The position numbers and the translations under genes are program-made. Shown here one piece after another: positions 8,465-12,158 of a stretch of 22,644 nucleotides of DNA. The DNA comes from a virus: IMG/VR virus record IMGVR_UViG_3300025960_000021, positions 1-22,644 of that record, one strand, 5' to 3'. The stretch's first letter is position 1. Each line of letters begins with the position of its first letter. The notes under the pieces are model-generated. The model made no database searches. It saw only the letters and a program-made list of their open reading frames with translations, and was not told the origin of the DNA.

Positions 8465-9773
8465 ATAGGTCCTCCAGCGTGAATGCGTAACTCGCGCCGT
8501 GCGCGCGAGGGTCGGCGATGCCCCGGACTTCGTCCGGTGCTGAGAGCACAGGATTGTCCGCAGCGTCGGCCAATATCATATACCTAAATCCATCGGCGTA
8601 ATTGGAGCTCCAGTCGTGGACGGGGGTGTCCTTGAACACCTTACGATCCTCATCCCACTCCTTATGGTATGTCTTCAGGGCCATGCGTCCTTCGGACGTC
8701 CCTTGCTTATCAAAGAAGAGGAGGGGGAACCTCTCCCTGGCGGCCTGAATTCCATCTAGTAGGTCTAGATTCGGGACAATTCGGGGGTGTATTCCCTTGG
8801 CGAGGAATTGTTCAACGGTGGAGAGGCCTGTTTGGAGAGACTTCGCCCGTGCATCCTGCGGGAGCCAGACCTTCCCCTGCGGGGCGCGGAGCTCGGAGAC
8901 TGTGGCAGCAATCCATTCTATGTAGTAGGAGACGGGGCGCGTATTCGCGCTGAATGTTCGCAGGATTCGTAGTCCATCTGGGGCGCGCTGCCATACCCAG
9001 GCAGCGGTGCTGTCGCGCCAGCCCAAGTCAAATGCGAAGTGGAGGGGGGTCTGATCGGGGGTCAGTGCTAGGACTCTGCCTTGCGTCTCCGCCCTCTCCA
9101 TTTGCCTCGCATAATAGGCCCCGCGCGTGGACGCTTCGAAGCTGCACAGCATTTCCTGTGCGAACTCCTCCTCATCCATCATCCGTCTTAGCTCGTCCAG
9201 GTCCTCCTCGGAGATGACCTCTGTGTCGTAGGCAGTGAGGCGCTCAGTGTACCAGGCTGGGTCGTCTTGTCGGCCGTACCACATGTCCCGGAAGTGGTTG
9301 GGTCCGTTGGGCGTGCCCATAAATACGGCCCAACCGCGCCGGTCCAGGAGGGCAGGGAGCAGGACTTCCTTCCATATGCTCGGCTTCATTCCCCCAAACT
9401 CGTCCAGGGCTGCACCGTCTAGATAGAGGCCACGGAATGAGTCAGGGTTGTCGGCGCCATAGAGCGTTAATCGGCCTTGGTTATGTGGAAGTTCTATATA
9501 GAGCGAGCTCTCTGATATCTTTGGGCTGTACGGGGCGGCATAATCCTTCGCGTATGTCCATGCAATCTCCTTCGCTTGGCGATACAAGGGGGCGATGTAG
9601 GCATAGCGCGGATGGGGGCGTGTATTGTATGCGCATCGCTCTAGCAGGTCGTTGACGACGGCGACGGTCTTCCCTGCTCGTCTGTGCATGACGAGGATGG
9701 CAAAGCGTTCATTCCTCTGGTGGAAGCTTTGGAAGTGGGGCCTGGGAACGTAGGTGCTAGTGATCGTTGTCAT
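8433..9773 (-). CDS. terL: Terminase large subunit (packaging ATPase-nuclease)
   Basis: The frame is open to 9809, but the ATG at 9773 follows GGAGAGG by six bases and is the better start (446 aa); it overlaps the small-subunit gene by 17 bp. The ATPase domain has a Walker A variant HRRAGKT (about 30-36), Walker B with GLYLDGAALDEFGG (D124-E125) and the coupling motif FMGTPNG (about 151-157). The nuclease domain shows FAFDLGWRDST (D249), WLPQDA (D307) and SNYADGFRY (D394), three acidic positions expected of an RNase H-like nuclease. It cuts concatemeric DNA and pumps it through the portal. All key residues appear intact. Confidence 0.93.
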   Translation of the reverse strand: MTTITSTYVPRPHFQSFHQRNERFAILVMHRRAGKTVAVVNDLLERCAYNTRPHPRYAYIAPLYRQAKEIAWTYAKDYAAPYSPKISESSLYIELPHNQGRLTLYGADNPDSFRGLYLDGAALDEFGGMKPSIWKEVLLPALLDRRGWAVFMGTPNGPNHFRDMWYGRQDDPAWYTERLTAYDTEVISEEDLDELRRMMDEEEFAQEMLCSFEASTRGAYYARQMERAETQGRVLALTPDQTPLHFAFDLGWRDSTAAWVWQRAPDGLRILRTFSANTRPVSYYIEWIAATVSELRAPQGKVWLPQDARAKSLQTGLSTVEQFLAKGIHPRIVPNLDLLDGIQAARERFPLLFFDKQGTSEGRMALKTYHKEWDEDRKVFKDTPVHDWSSNYADGFRYMILADAADNPVLSAPDEVRGIADPRAHGASYAFTLEDLYGTRSSFRRI

Positions 9774-10149
9774 TGACGACCTCTCCATCCACTTGGATAG
9801 GCTCGTCAATGCGAGGGGACGGATGCGCGTCCAGCATAGTCGGTGGGACTGCGTGCTGGATTATTAACGCGGTCTGTGCGTCTAAGCTCAGTGTTGCAGC
9901 TGGGAACAACTTGCTGAACAGCTTGTAAAATTCGGTCTGATTGTCTGCTGCCCATATCGTCAATGCGTCCACTCCTCCTATCATTTGGAAGGAGTTCCTG
10001 AATGCGTTGACGAGCTCCTGTCGGCTAAAGCCGTCACTGGAGCGACGGAATTGGGGCAGCTTCGTCGGGGACGAAGCGAGCTCGGTCAGGCTCACTTCAC
10101 GGTCCTCTTTTGGGGGCCGTCCCCGACGGAATGGGCGGTTGCTGGGCAT
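9757..10149 (-). CDS. terS: Terminase small subunit-like protein
   Basis: This 130-aa protein lies immediately upstream of the large terminase with a 17-bp overlap. The basic N-terminus (RPFRRGRPPKEDREV) resembles an AT-hook-like or DNA-contact tail. The centre carries FRNSFQMIGGVDALTIWAADN and EFYKLFSKLFP, a helical pattern I recognise from small-terminase-type proteins beside this kind of large terminase. The C-terminus is acidic. The ATG at 10149 has no obvious ribosome site, unlike most genes in the operon, so the first gene may be translated weakly or start elsewhere. Role by position and motif: recognising the packaging site and presenting DNA to the large subunit. Confidence 0.72.
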   Translation of the reverse strand: MPSNRPFRRGRPPKEDREVSLTELASSPTKLPQFRRSSDGFSRQELVNAFRNSFQMIGGVDALTIWAADNQTEFYKLFSKLFPAATLSLDAQTALIIQHAVPPTMLDAHPSPRIDEPIQVDGEVVNDNDH

Positions 10150-10230
10150 GGTGCATAGTAGCGGGTTTTGGCGCCATGTAATATACCACTTTCGAGATAG
10201 GGTCTCGGTCTTATATAAGTCTGGACACCA

Positions 10231-10269
10231 TTGTAGGCGGTCGCCTTGTAAAGGGGGAGGATCATTGTA
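10231..10269. repeat. Three TTGTA direct repeats upstream of terS
   Basis: TTGTA occurs at 10231, 10246 and 10265. The first two flank a palindrome, GGCG-GT-CGCC. The spacing of 15 and 19 bp is not strictly regular. Close to the small terminase gene this could be a protein-binding site, but the repeat unit is short and chance is a real alternative. Confidence 0.3.
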
Positions 10270-10276
10270 AGTGGCG

Positions 10277-10326
10277 AAATACCTATATAAATACCTATTC
10301 TTATTATATTATTATATTATTATATT
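10277..10326. repeat. AT-rich repeat tract (possible unwinding element)
   Basis: Two copies of AAATACCTAT lie 12 bp apart (10277-10286 and 10289-10298). Three perfect tandem copies of TTATTATA follow (10301-10324). The tract is almost pure A+T in an otherwise GC-richer genome, as in DNA-unwinding elements next to initiator-binding repeats. Read on the minus strand the same tract contains three TATAAT hexamers, so it could also hold -10 elements of late promoters reading toward the terminase; no convincing -35 was found. Confidence 0.6.
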
Positions 10327-10453
10327 GAAATATATATTAAGTGTACTATAGGGTATATCATATCGAAGATAAGGGTATAAGAGGTATGAGGACTCACCTA
10401 ATATGCATATAGGCGCAAACAACACAAGGCAATGCAATGGTAATTGGATATCT

Positions 10454-10530
10454 ATTCCCCCCACGATTCCCCCCACGATTCCCCCCACGATTCCCCCCAC
10501 GATTCGTACAAGATTCGTACAAGATTCGGG
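10454..10530. repeat. Iteron-like tandem repeats, left cluster
   Basis: Four perfect copies of the 12-mer ATTCCCCCCACG (10454-10501) run directly into two copies of the 11-mer ATTCGTACAAG (10502-10523) and a further ATTCGGGG. The ATTC core therefore recurs at 12, 12, 12, 12, 11 and 11 bp, close to one helical turn each and all in the same orientation. There is no spacer diversity as in CRISPR, and the only frame through it encodes a low-complexity Gly-Ile-Val repeat. Most likely a protein-binding array. Confidence 0.75.
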
Positions 10531-10534
10531 GCAA

Positions 10535-10612
10535 CTCCCTCCAGGAAGGGAGGCTTCAGGGCGATCCGACATCAGAGCTCGGTGAATGGTGTTCCGAGGA
10601 CTTCAGACCTCG
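10535..10612. repeat. Two small inverted repeats between the ATTC clusters
   Basis: CTCCCT...AGGGAG spans about 10535-10552, and CGAGG-ACTTCAGA-CCTCG spans 10595-10612. They lie between the two iteron-like clusters. Nothing else is evident between them. Confidence 0.4.
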
Positions 10613-10624
10613 AACCGCCAGGTG

Positions 10625-10701
10625 ATTCCCCCCGAATTCGTCAGAATTCGTCTCGACGCTGGCAGATTCGTCTCGACCCCACCAGATTCGTAAAGAATTC
10701 G
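10625..10701. repeat. Iteron-like ATTC repeats, right cluster
   Basis: ATTC cores lie at 10625, 10636, 10646, 10666, 10686 and 10697, all direct, spaced 11, 10, 20, 20 and 11 bp. Two of them belong to the 12-mer ATTCGTCTCGAC repeated exactly 20 bp apart (10646 and 10666). Spacing near multiples of the helical repeat puts the motifs on one face of the DNA, as expected for a cooperative binding protein. Confidence 0.65.
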
Positions 10702-10750
10702 CCCCATCAGCTCTGAACTCAGATATCGACGCGGGTGGGAGGATCTCGAA

Positions 10751-10767
10751 CGCGACGAGGCGTCGCG
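10751..10767. repeat. Perfect palindrome with short centre
   Basis: CGCGACG and CGTCGCG flank AGG. It lies just beyond the T-tract of the minus-strand terminator and could be a binding site or part of a compound hairpin. Confidence 0.5.
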
Positions 10768-10768
10768 C

Positions 10769-10803
10769 AAAAACCTCGACGAGACCCCGAGTCTCGTCAG
10801 AGG
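10769..10803 (-). terminator. Rho-independent terminator of the minus-strand accessory operon
   Basis: Reading the minus strand, GACGAGAC-TCGGG-GTCTCGTC is an 8-bp stem extended by CCTC/GAGG with one bulged base, followed by five T residues (A residues 10769-10773 on the plus strand). It lies 22 bp after the stop of the 20-aa peptide gene, so it would end the accessory operon before the ATTC array. Confidence 0.75.
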
Positions 10804-10817
10804 GGACGGACCCCTCT
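10799..10817. repeat. Inverted repeat next to the terminator
   Basis: AGAGGGG-ACGGA-CCCCTCT is a perfect 7-bp stem with a 5-base loop. It partly overlaps the base of the terminator stem and may form a competing structure on the same transcript. Confidence 0.45.
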
Positions 10818-10825
10818 GACGCGTC

Positions 10826-10888
10826 CTACTCGTCCTTCATGAGGAGCCAGTAGAACAGTACCAGAATGAACACCAGCCCCCAGGACAT
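10826..10888 (-). CDS. Putative 20-aa single-span membrane peptide
   Basis: A minus-strand ATG at 10888 begins one base after the zinc-finger gene's TGA stop and reads 20 residues to TAG. Residues 2-17 are hydrophobic and aromatic (SWGLVFILVLFYWLLM), and the end is MKDE; this is enough for one short membrane span with a charged C-terminus. A G-rich GGGGGGTGA stretch lies immediately upstream and may serve as ribosome site or allow coupled re-initiation. The terminator follows 22 bp later, so the peptide would be the last gene of the accessory operon. Tiny hydrophobic phage peptides may act in lysis timing, membrane perturbation or superinfection effects, but nothing identifies the role here. 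The clean hydrophobic pattern and tight spacing argue for a real gene; the size leaves doubt. Confidence 0.5.
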   Translation of the reverse strand: MSWGLVFILVLFYWLLMKDE

Positions 10889-10889
10889 G

Positions 10890-11126
10890 TCACCCCCCGT
10901 GAGTCTTCGCGTGCTGCGCATATCGTCCAGCCGCCATCTGCTTTCCGCAGGTGGGACACTCGCAGCGCATCCGCAGCTGGAATGCGCTGCCTGGGACGAG
11001 CGGGACAGCCCAGACCTTCACCCCATTCACCTCGCGCGGTGCCAGGCCTTCGGCCGGCGTGTGGGCAATTCCGAGAATTTCACGCAGTTCGTGCGTGTGG
11101 ATTTGGCGGTTGCGTCCATTAATCAT
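10890..11126 (-). CDS. C2H2-type zinc-finger protein, 78 aa
   Basis: The frame is open to 11183, but the ATG at 11126 has GGGAG five bases upstream and makes a 4-bp ATGA overlap with the preceding gene, so it is preferred. The N-terminal part (IHTHELREILGIAHTPAEG) looks like a short helical DNA- or protein-binding unit. The C-terminus holds CPTCGKQMAAGRYAQHAKTH, a C-x2-C-x11-H-x3-H arrangement like a classical zinc finger, with an additional Cys two residues earlier. Small zinc-finger proteins in phage accessory blocks are often regulators or host-takeover factors; which one is not shown. The metal-binding motif is visible directly, the function is inference. Confidence 0.75.
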   Translation of the reverse strand: MINGRNRQIHTHELREILGIAHTPAEGLAPREVNGVKVWAVPLVPGSAFQLRMRCECPTCGKQMAAGRYAQHAKTHGG

Positions 11127-11332
11127 TTCGGCTCCCGCGTTTCCATCCAACGGATCGGCTCGTGGCGACCCACGTGCTCCCAAAAGTCACGGATCGCCTC
11201 CTTACGTTGATCTTCGTAAGACGCATCGCCGTTAACGATGGTTTGAAAATACCCAGCGGGCTCGGCGGCCCACGGATTCGTGAGAGATCCGCCCTCTCCA
11301 ATCCCGTAGGCGATGACCATAATAATCTTCAT
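11123..11332 (-). CDS. Small conserved-looking protein, 69 aa, unknown function
   Basis: Starts at an ATG with GAGGGG nine bases upstream and ends in an ATGA overlap with the zinc-finger gene. The N-terminus (MKIIMVIAYGIGEGG) is mildly hydrophobic but too short and too glycine-rich for a signal peptide. The C-terminal half is charged and helical (YEDQRKEAIRDFWEHVGRH). No family was recognised. It sits downstream of the GC-hairpin run, which lies in its 5' untranslated region and could affect its expression. Confidence 0.65.
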   Translation of the reverse strand: MKIIMVIAYGIGEGGSLTNPWAAEPAGYFQTIVNGDASYEDQRKEAIRDFWEHVGRHEPIRWMETREPK

Positions 11333-11359
11333 TTCAATTCCCCTCAGATTCGTGTATCG

Positions 11360-11478
11360 CCCTCGGCGGAGGCCGAGGGACCAGGACGCTCCGCTTGCGG
11401 AGCGTCGGGTGCGGCTGGCCTGGCGCTACGCGCCCCAGCCCGCAAGCTGGGCGCAACTGGCGCCCCTCGCGGGGCGCC
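11360..11478 (-). repeat. Run of GC-rich hairpins between two accessory genes
   Basis: Four or five stems are packed into 119 bp. CCCTCGGC-GGAG-GCCGAGGG lies at 11360-11379, GACGCTCCGC-TT-GCGGAGCGTC at 11385-11406 and GGCTGG...CCAGCC enclosing GGCGC-TAC-GCGCC at 11413-11440. CCCAGC-CCGCAA-GCTGGG at 11434-11451 competes with the previous stem, and GGCGCCCC-TCGC-GGGGCGCC lies at 11459-11478. Stem sequences differ, so this is not a repeat family but repeated structure. On the transcript it falls between the 112-aa and 69-aa genes. No T-tracts follow, so simple terminators are unlikely. Confidence 0.75.
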
Positions 11479-11482
11479 CCGC

Positions 11483-11821
11483 TTACGCTGCCTTGACCAG
11501 GTAGCCGCGACGCAGGCAGTAGCCGAAAAAGTGGCTGGGCACACCCGCCGGATTTTCCTTGGTTACCAGCATGGGCGCGACCGCAGCCGTGGCCGGGTGG
11601 GCACCCTGGGGGCCGCCTGTGTTGGCGCCGATTTGCGCCACAATGGCCGAAAACCACGCTTGGTTGTGCGGCGCTTTGGTGCGATACACTTGCGCGGGGT
11701 TAACCGCGACAGCGGCCACGGCGATGCCGTTGGCAACTGCGACGCTTTGCAGCACGATTTGCGCGGGGGCTTGCGCCTTGGGGGCGCGCTTGGCGGGGAC
11801 AGACTTTGCTTTGGTGGCCAT
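11483..11821 (-). CDS. Ala/Lys-rich basic protein, 112 aa, unknown function
   Basis: Starts at an ATG with AAAAGGT eight bases upstream and is the first gene of the minus-strand accessory operon. Residues 1-22 (MATKAKSVPAKRAPKAQ and onward) form a Lys/Ala/Pro tail like those of nucleic-acid-binding proteins. The rest has an alternating hydrophobic segment (VLQSVAVANGIAVAAVAV) and a conserved-looking C-terminus with AWFSAIVAQIG and FFGYCLRRGYLVKAA. It has no known catalytic motif. The basic tail and compact C-terminal half fit a small DNA- or RNA-binding protein. GC-rich frames on the opposite strand are shadows of this gene. Function not recognised. Confidence 0.65.
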   Translation of the reverse strand: MATKAKSVPAKRAPKAQAPAQIVLQSVAVANGIAVAAVAVNPAQVYRTKAPHNQAWFSAIVAQIGANTGGPQGAHPATAAVAPMLVTKENPAGVPSHFFGYCLRRGYLVKAA

Positions 11822-11833
11822 GATTTACCTTTT

Positions 11834-11888
11834 GGTTGGCGACCGCCCGGGAGGCGCCGGGCCGCTGGGCCAGCTCACCTTGCCAACC
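11834..11888 (-). promoter_or_regulatory. Branched structured mRNA leader (three-way junction-like)
   Basis: Outer arms GGTTGGC (11834-11840) and GCCAACC (11882-11888) enclose two smaller hairpins: GCCCGG-GAGGCG-CCGGGC (11845-11862) and GCTG-GGC-CAGC (11864-11874). On the minus-strand transcript this forms a closed two-armed junction that starts almost at the predicted transcript 5' end and stops just before the ribosome site of the 112-aa gene. It may control translation or protect the RNA end. Confidence 0.55.
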
Positions 11889-11897
11889 CATGCATGT

Positions 11898-11906
11898 AGT
11901 ATAACA
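11898..11906 (-). promoter_or_regulatory. Extended -10 promoter for the accessory operon
   Basis: The minus strand reads TGTTATACT, an extended -10 (TG-N-TATACT). Transcription would start near 11891. No good -35 is present at 16-18 bp, which is tolerated by extended -10 promoters. Confidence 0.55.
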
Positions 11907-11925
11907 GGGATACCCCCCACTGTGC

Positions 11926-11967
11926 GTGCATACTGCACACTTCGGGGGCTGTTACACATCGGATGTG
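11926..11967. promoter_or_regulatory. Two operator-like palindromes in the divergent control region
   Basis: GTGCA-TAC-TGCAC (11926-11938) and CACATC-G-GATGTG (11955-11967) are perfect inverted repeats upstream of the leftward promoter. TGTTAC motifs at 11950, 12021 and 12030 and the inverted GTAACA at 12063 extend the region to the right. No repressor gene is recognised in the window. Confidence 0.45.
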
Positions 11968-12158
11968 GGGCTAGCACATGGAGCTCGATAAGTAAAGCGT
12001 GGGGTTATTGTCGGGGGGTGTGTTACGTCTGTTACAGGTGTTGTTCCGAGGCCACGGGGGGAGTAACACCCCTTGCGTTTTTCGAAGATCGCTCGCCCCC
12101 TCCATCCAAAATGTCTGGAATTCTGATCCTACGCACTATGCCTCAGAACCCTAGACAC

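Follow-up and report, generated by a model that had tools for sequence, protein, structure and literature searches.

In PICI/SaPI origins, two sets of iterons flank an AT-rich region, and this layout has been called unique to satellites (PMC6092414). The origins of phage SPP1 are formed by direct repeats together with an AT-rich element (PMC6316719). Moreover, in SCCmec a homologue of SaPI5-Rep recognises direct repeats of 5 nt, and the C-terminal domain of this protein is able to bind the putative origin on its own (PMC7581432). In case of the uncultured phage group studied here, no published description of origins was found in the literature searched. The window, that is the whole analysed stretch of 22,644 nucleotides, is a 22.6-kb viral record to which one 19.8-kb contig is 99.9% identical across the shared part. 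In our study, an array of short ATTC repeats in this window is read as the one-sided direct-repeat flank of a candidate replication-origin region, in a tailed phage with its own SF3 primase-helicase; the probability of this reading is put at a little under one half (about 0.48).

A motif scan of the window has identified 13 ATTC[CG] motifs, all on the plus strand, within about 250 bp and in two clusters. The initial annotation had listed thirteen ATTCC/ATTCG motifs of one orientation in two clusters, and their positions as well as their spacings were confirmed exactly. The motifs of cluster 1 start at 10454, 10466, 10478, 10490, 10502, 10513 and 10524 (spacings 12,12,12,12,11,11 bp), and the tandem consists mostly of GATTCCCCCCAC (12 bp) and then of GATTCGTACAA (11 bp). 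Those of cluster 2 start at 10625, 10636, 10646, 10666, 10686 and 10697 (spacings 11,10,20,20,11 bp) and have only the ATTC core in common with cluster 1. The count of 13 is far above chance, as 2000 local dinucleotide shuffles had 1.9 motifs on average and never more than 7, and 200 whole-window shuffles had at most five per 255-bp tile. The elements of the array are given below, L002 being a relative with 93.7% identity to the window.

10453-10530, plus strand: ATTC array cluster 1, seven same-strand units, with four C-rich 12-mers against three in L002
10531-10623, no strand: spacer between the clusters, most of 10487-10600 being replaced in L002
10624-10701, plus strand: ATTC array cluster 2, six same-strand (G)ATTC units, with a 1-bp insertion in L002
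11337-11353, plus strand: outlying array-like pair, ATTC at 11337 and 11348, 11 bp apart, just upstream of the start of a 69-aa ORF

The array had also been described as helically phased, which was borne out for cluster 2 (R = 0.98 at about 10.2 bp, a value reached by 0.2% of random spacings) and not for the remainder. Cluster 1 gave no more than R = 0.50 (at 10.2-10.8 bp), a value that 47% of random spacings also attain; its units of 12 and 11 bp recur with a period of about 11.7 bp and drift around the helix. For all 13 units together R was 0.55, reached by 15% of random spacings. Hence, with a period of about 10.5 bp as the measure, the units of the whole array do not share one face of the helix, and those of cluster 2 alone do so.

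Among all loci fetched, the array is carried only by the same virus and by L002. The array of L002 has 11 units with spacings of 12,12,12,21,91,11,10,20,21,11 bp; most of 10487-10600 is replaced there, one ATTC unit is regained at 21 bp and one spacing of cluster 2 has grown from 20 to 21 bp. Recurrence of motif and spacing in close relatives, on which the initial annotation had staked its proposal, was thus seen in this one relative for the motif and for the steps of 10-12 or 20-21 bp, whereas the copy number and the middle part differ. Retention in L002 says little about selection, because nearly all of 10100-12100 outside the replaced patch is almost identical between the two phages. Cultured relatives gave no match by megablast, the array word was found among viral contigs in the same lineage only (besides a coincidental single match in the overlapping L069 and L071), and scans based on the capsid, run on viral and genome contigs, yielded no other array of the ATTC word with 12-bp tandem units. 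Searches with the zinc-finger protein and the 69-aa ORF also returned homologs from the same lineage only. From these comparisons, the array appears to be lineage-specific.

A neutral minisatellite, produced by replication slippage beside the AT-rich region and read by no protein, would account for the identical 12-mers of cluster 1 and for their copy number of four versus three in two close phages. Slippage does not, however, predict a second cluster with helical spacing (R 0.98) and nothing beyond the ATTC core in common with the first, and in L002 the replaced patch has regained an ATTC unit 21 bp away; this explanation is considered very improbable.

The array had been called noncoding, and this holds, as the minus-strand frame contains a stop codon in L002 and the sequence upstream of it is replaced there. 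A coding repeat had been considered since the 12-bp units lie in frame in one minus-strand ORF (IVGGIVGG...), and it was rejected as the frame is broken in L002. An Rfam search of the array region gave no match and RNA folding reached z = -1.2 for 10530-10760 (-2.3 with the terminator hairpins and cluster 1 added), so that a structured RNA was dropped as well. A guanine quadruplex of four G6 tracts on the minus strand is probably not kept in L002, whose cluster has only three, and GANTC methylation was discarded because the GAATTC units are not GANTC sites.

The array is situated between a terminator-like hairpin and an AT-rich region before terS, with the packaging genes on one side and the DNA replication genes on the other. 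The neighbouring features are as follows.

9757-10149, minus strand: terS, putative small terminase, homologous to the gene preceding terL in relatives
10277-10337, no strand: candidate origin core or DNA unwinding element, the AT-richest 60 bp of the window
10279-10387, no strand: inverted GGTAT words around the core (ATACCT at 10279 and 10291; RGGTAT at 10351, 10373 and 10382)
10311-10340, minus strand: sigma70-like promoter match reading toward terS (TTAATA-18-TATAAT, 10 of 12), a consensus match only
10777-10799, minus strand: terminator-like hairpin with T run, ending the operon of orf112, the 69-aa ORF and the zinc-finger gene before the array
10890-11183, minus strand: 97-aa zinc-finger protein, lineage-specific, candidate reader of the array
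11483-11821, minus strand: orf112, small protein, conserved beside the origin region in relatives
11950-12068, no strand: second candidate site, TGTTAC four times (11950+, 12021+, 12030+, 12063-), kept in L002
13175-15256, minus strand: SF3 primase-helicase, candidate initiator, from profile matches and predicted structure

The stretch 10277-10337 is 90% AT in comparison to 68% for the next-best 60 bp of the window, and it adjoins the ATTC array, a neighbour which the initial annotation had not named. Five GGTAT words flank it, and the array starts about 70 bp past the last of them. The best-5-mer inverted-flank score at this core, in a test where the cores of relatives were placed by eye, was reached by none of 500 local shuffles, and 7 of 1113 window positions equal it, two of the seven being the core site itself. 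In the stricter 8-mer test of inverted flanks, the core of the window was at chance level. The TGTTAC site (119 bp, between orf112 and the plus-strand ORFs) has the GTTAC core of the relatives' iterons and no AT-rich core. By sequence reading, the order of origin core, repeat stretch, terminator, tiny membrane ORF and orf112 resembles that in L132 and L085. The tiny membrane ORF MSWGLVFILVLFYWLLMKDE (10826-10888, minus strand) is identical in L002, and tiny hydrophobic ORFs were read at similar places in L132 and L085.

The candidate initiator has profile matches to NrS-1 and to SaPI5 PriRep. The AlphaFold model of its C-terminal half (pLDDT 90.6) was superposed on NrS-1 with Z 24.9 (295 residues, rmsd 5.2) and on the SaPI5 primase-helicase with Z 18.2 (266 residues, rmsd 4.5); the full-length model, built from five sequences, had a pLDDT of 57 and was left out of the analysis. 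On profiles and model, the window is predicted to encode a Rep/Pri-Rep (SF3, D5-like) primase-helicase as in PICI/SaPI-type systems.

Homology search has revealed SF3-helicase homologs in 21 viral contigs, most of them fragments, and many of these relatives share DNA polymerase, SNF2-type helicase, terminase, portal and capsid genes with the window. Near the SF3 gene, mostly in the interval between SF3 and terS, most relatives have a dense array of a short word of their own. In 11 of 17 relatives, inverted copies of one 8-mer stand on both sides of the 60 bp with the highest AT content in the interval, above every shuffle; examples are GGTTACA in L100 and L088, GGTGGCA in L101, GTAGTAAG in L099, and GGTAACA in L085 and L093. 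GTAGTAA and AATACCC are further iteron words of relatives. The AT maximum of the interval is that of the whole locus in 10 of 13. The origin-like region lies immediately 3' of the helicase gene in relatives such as L100, L101, L085 and L093. L089 and L101, both with GGTGGCA, have in common a distinct shorter segment near the SF3 C terminus, a hint that iteron word and SF3 C terminus may vary together. About twelve relatives share a 30-bp box at the candidate origin, inside or beside the origin-like iteron region, and several iteron-bearing relatives are without it.

L085:12188, L087:7094, L093:1867, L100:12156, L101:4204, L102:12134, L132:2176: 30-bp box CTAAGTGCTTGTTTTGTAAGGGGTTTTTGG
L088:8715, L099:5802, L094:9505, minus strand: 30-bp box CTAAGTGCTTGTTTTGTAAGGGGTTTTTGG

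The box model was built from ten relatives; L094 is outside this training set, and its match adjoins the AT maximum of its locus. In the window lineage the model scan found no box, the best score in the window being 5.4 bits vs 25-43 in relatives which have it. Second elements adjacent to the origin were significant by word scan in part of the relatives only, and in this loose comparison they were weak or absent in others. Fifteen head-to-tail noncoding 5-bp repeats of CCCTG(CC) type were also observed at L085:12777-12853, beside the origin-like region. Pairs of direct repeats of about 25-40 bp occur shortly upstream of terS at L088:7060-7160, L099:4605-4690 and L101:5135-5215, with no tandem array there. 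L087:9255-11448 has the same replication module and a leader array, followed by 204-aa and 531-aa genes; these look by position like an unrelated small/large terminase pair and were missed in the search with the terminase proteins of the window.

Compared with PICI/SaPI origins, the phages studied here have in common an SF3-type primase-helicase, iterons and an AT-rich core, and the core of the relatives has a set of iterons on either side, often directly after the 3' end of the helicase gene. The window departs from this layout in that about 2.8 kb separate its core from the helicase gene (SF3 end 13175; core and array 10277-10701) and terS is the neighbour instead. Around this core the inverted GGTAT words are weak and the ATTC direct repeats stand on one side alone; moreover, the DNA belongs to a tailed phage, with genes for capsid and packaging, and not to a satellite. 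As in SPP1 oriL/oriR, the direct repeats of the window stand beside an AT-rich element, and the carrier is in both cases a tailed phage, whereas SPP1 uses a separate origin-binding protein, gp38, and a DnaB-type helicase with its loader instead of an SF3 primase-helicase. The putative SCCmec Cch2 origin (PMC7581432) is similar in having a SaPI5-Rep-like helicase and 5-nt direct-repeat iterons bound by the C-terminal domain, and it differs in having three iterons only, at a site directly downstream of the helicase gene.

The initial annotation had offered initiator iterons or a packaging-protein array. The first of these suits the place of the array, as the iteron arrays of relatives lie in the helicase-to-terS interval and an AT-rich neighbour is present, and it does not suit the form: the iterons of relatives are inverted copies of other words on both sides of the core, and the ATTC units stand on one side only and all point the same way. 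The array is more likely an accessory direct-repeat flank than canonical SF3 iterons. The origin-flank reading is put forward because the repeats adjoin the AT-richest stretch with its inverted GGTAT words and relatives have iterons in the same interval, because the SF3 protein of the window is related to SaPI5 PriRep and NrS-1, and because L002 keeps the motif in its replaced middle together with steps of 10-12 or 20-21 bp. Against it stand the one-sidedness and single orientation of the array and its motif, which is unlike the relatives' iteron words, and also the absent 30-bp box, the failed 8-mer flank test, the GGTAT score matched elsewhere and the second GTTAC site. Every functional step for these phages is one that we infer. 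The SF3 helicase would assemble on the words around the AT-rich core and then melt the core. The ATTC units may bind several copies of a phage protein, which could be the SF3 helicase itself, the zinc-finger protein or orf112, and the protein bound there would stabilise or regulate the initiation complex.

The AT-rich region may instead hold promoters. A phage regulator on the repeats, acting as an operator or activator array of the late (packaging and capsid) operon, would then control transcription from this region into terS. Two sigma70-like minus-strand matches (10340-10311 and 10291-10264) read toward terS, and an array-like ATTC pair also stands just upstream of the 69-aa ORF. Such matches are cheap in AT-rich DNA, however (3 found vs 1.4 expected), and the candidate -35 lies at least about 110 bp downstream of the array. 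Further, in several relatives the late-operon leaders have direct repeat arrays just downstream of exact sigma54-type promoters. Exact matches to TGGCAYR-N4-TTGCW, one per locus, were found at L057:2947, L058:694, L061:927, L085:13640, L087:8558, L090:3720, L093:3322, L099:5371, L091:6537(-) and L132:3155, and most of them precede the late operon, whose leader contains direct repeat arrays. A search for a phage-encoded sigma54 activator in these contigs gave none over the cut-off. In the window, on the other hand, no sigma54-type sequence came within 1.5 points of consensus, and near the array none came within 4.5. Control of the late operon by the array is regarded as clearly less probable than the origin-flank reading.

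The packaging-protein alternative takes the array as a recognition site (pac or cosB-like) which TerS binds and at which packaging starts. A family search with terS gave no family match. The array is 300-550 bp upstream of terS, and the pac region of SPP1/SF6 is similar in that sets of direct repeats lie close to the gene of the small terminase, around its start (PMC4737164). In SPP1, however, three direct-repeat sets extend across the terS promoters and start, whereas the window has 13 short units at a distance and beside an AT-rich core; moreover, the DNA-binding domain of SPP1/SF6 TerS is not specific for those repeats, which have little effect on binding (PMC4737164). In the loci seen, contig ends of relatives do not cluster at this interval, and in L088, L099 and L101 orf112 and long spacers separate the SF3-side array from terS. 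A packaging role is judged unlikely.

If the origin-flank reading is true, our study assigns to an uncultured group of phages a replication origin with its array of repeats, and the origin layout called unique to satellites (PMC6092414) would extend to a tailed-phage family. In a further and rather improbable proposal, this family would use satellite-type (PICI/SaPI) self-loading SF3 origins, and the window lineage would have given up the canonical origin, with inverted iterons and 30-bp box. In its place, a one-sided array of direct repeats near the terminase genes would be read by the zinc-finger protein, which would couple replication to late transcription or packaging. The turnover of repeat words at a nearly fixed genomic place would allow one to test, across natural phages, whether initiator and origin have evolved together.
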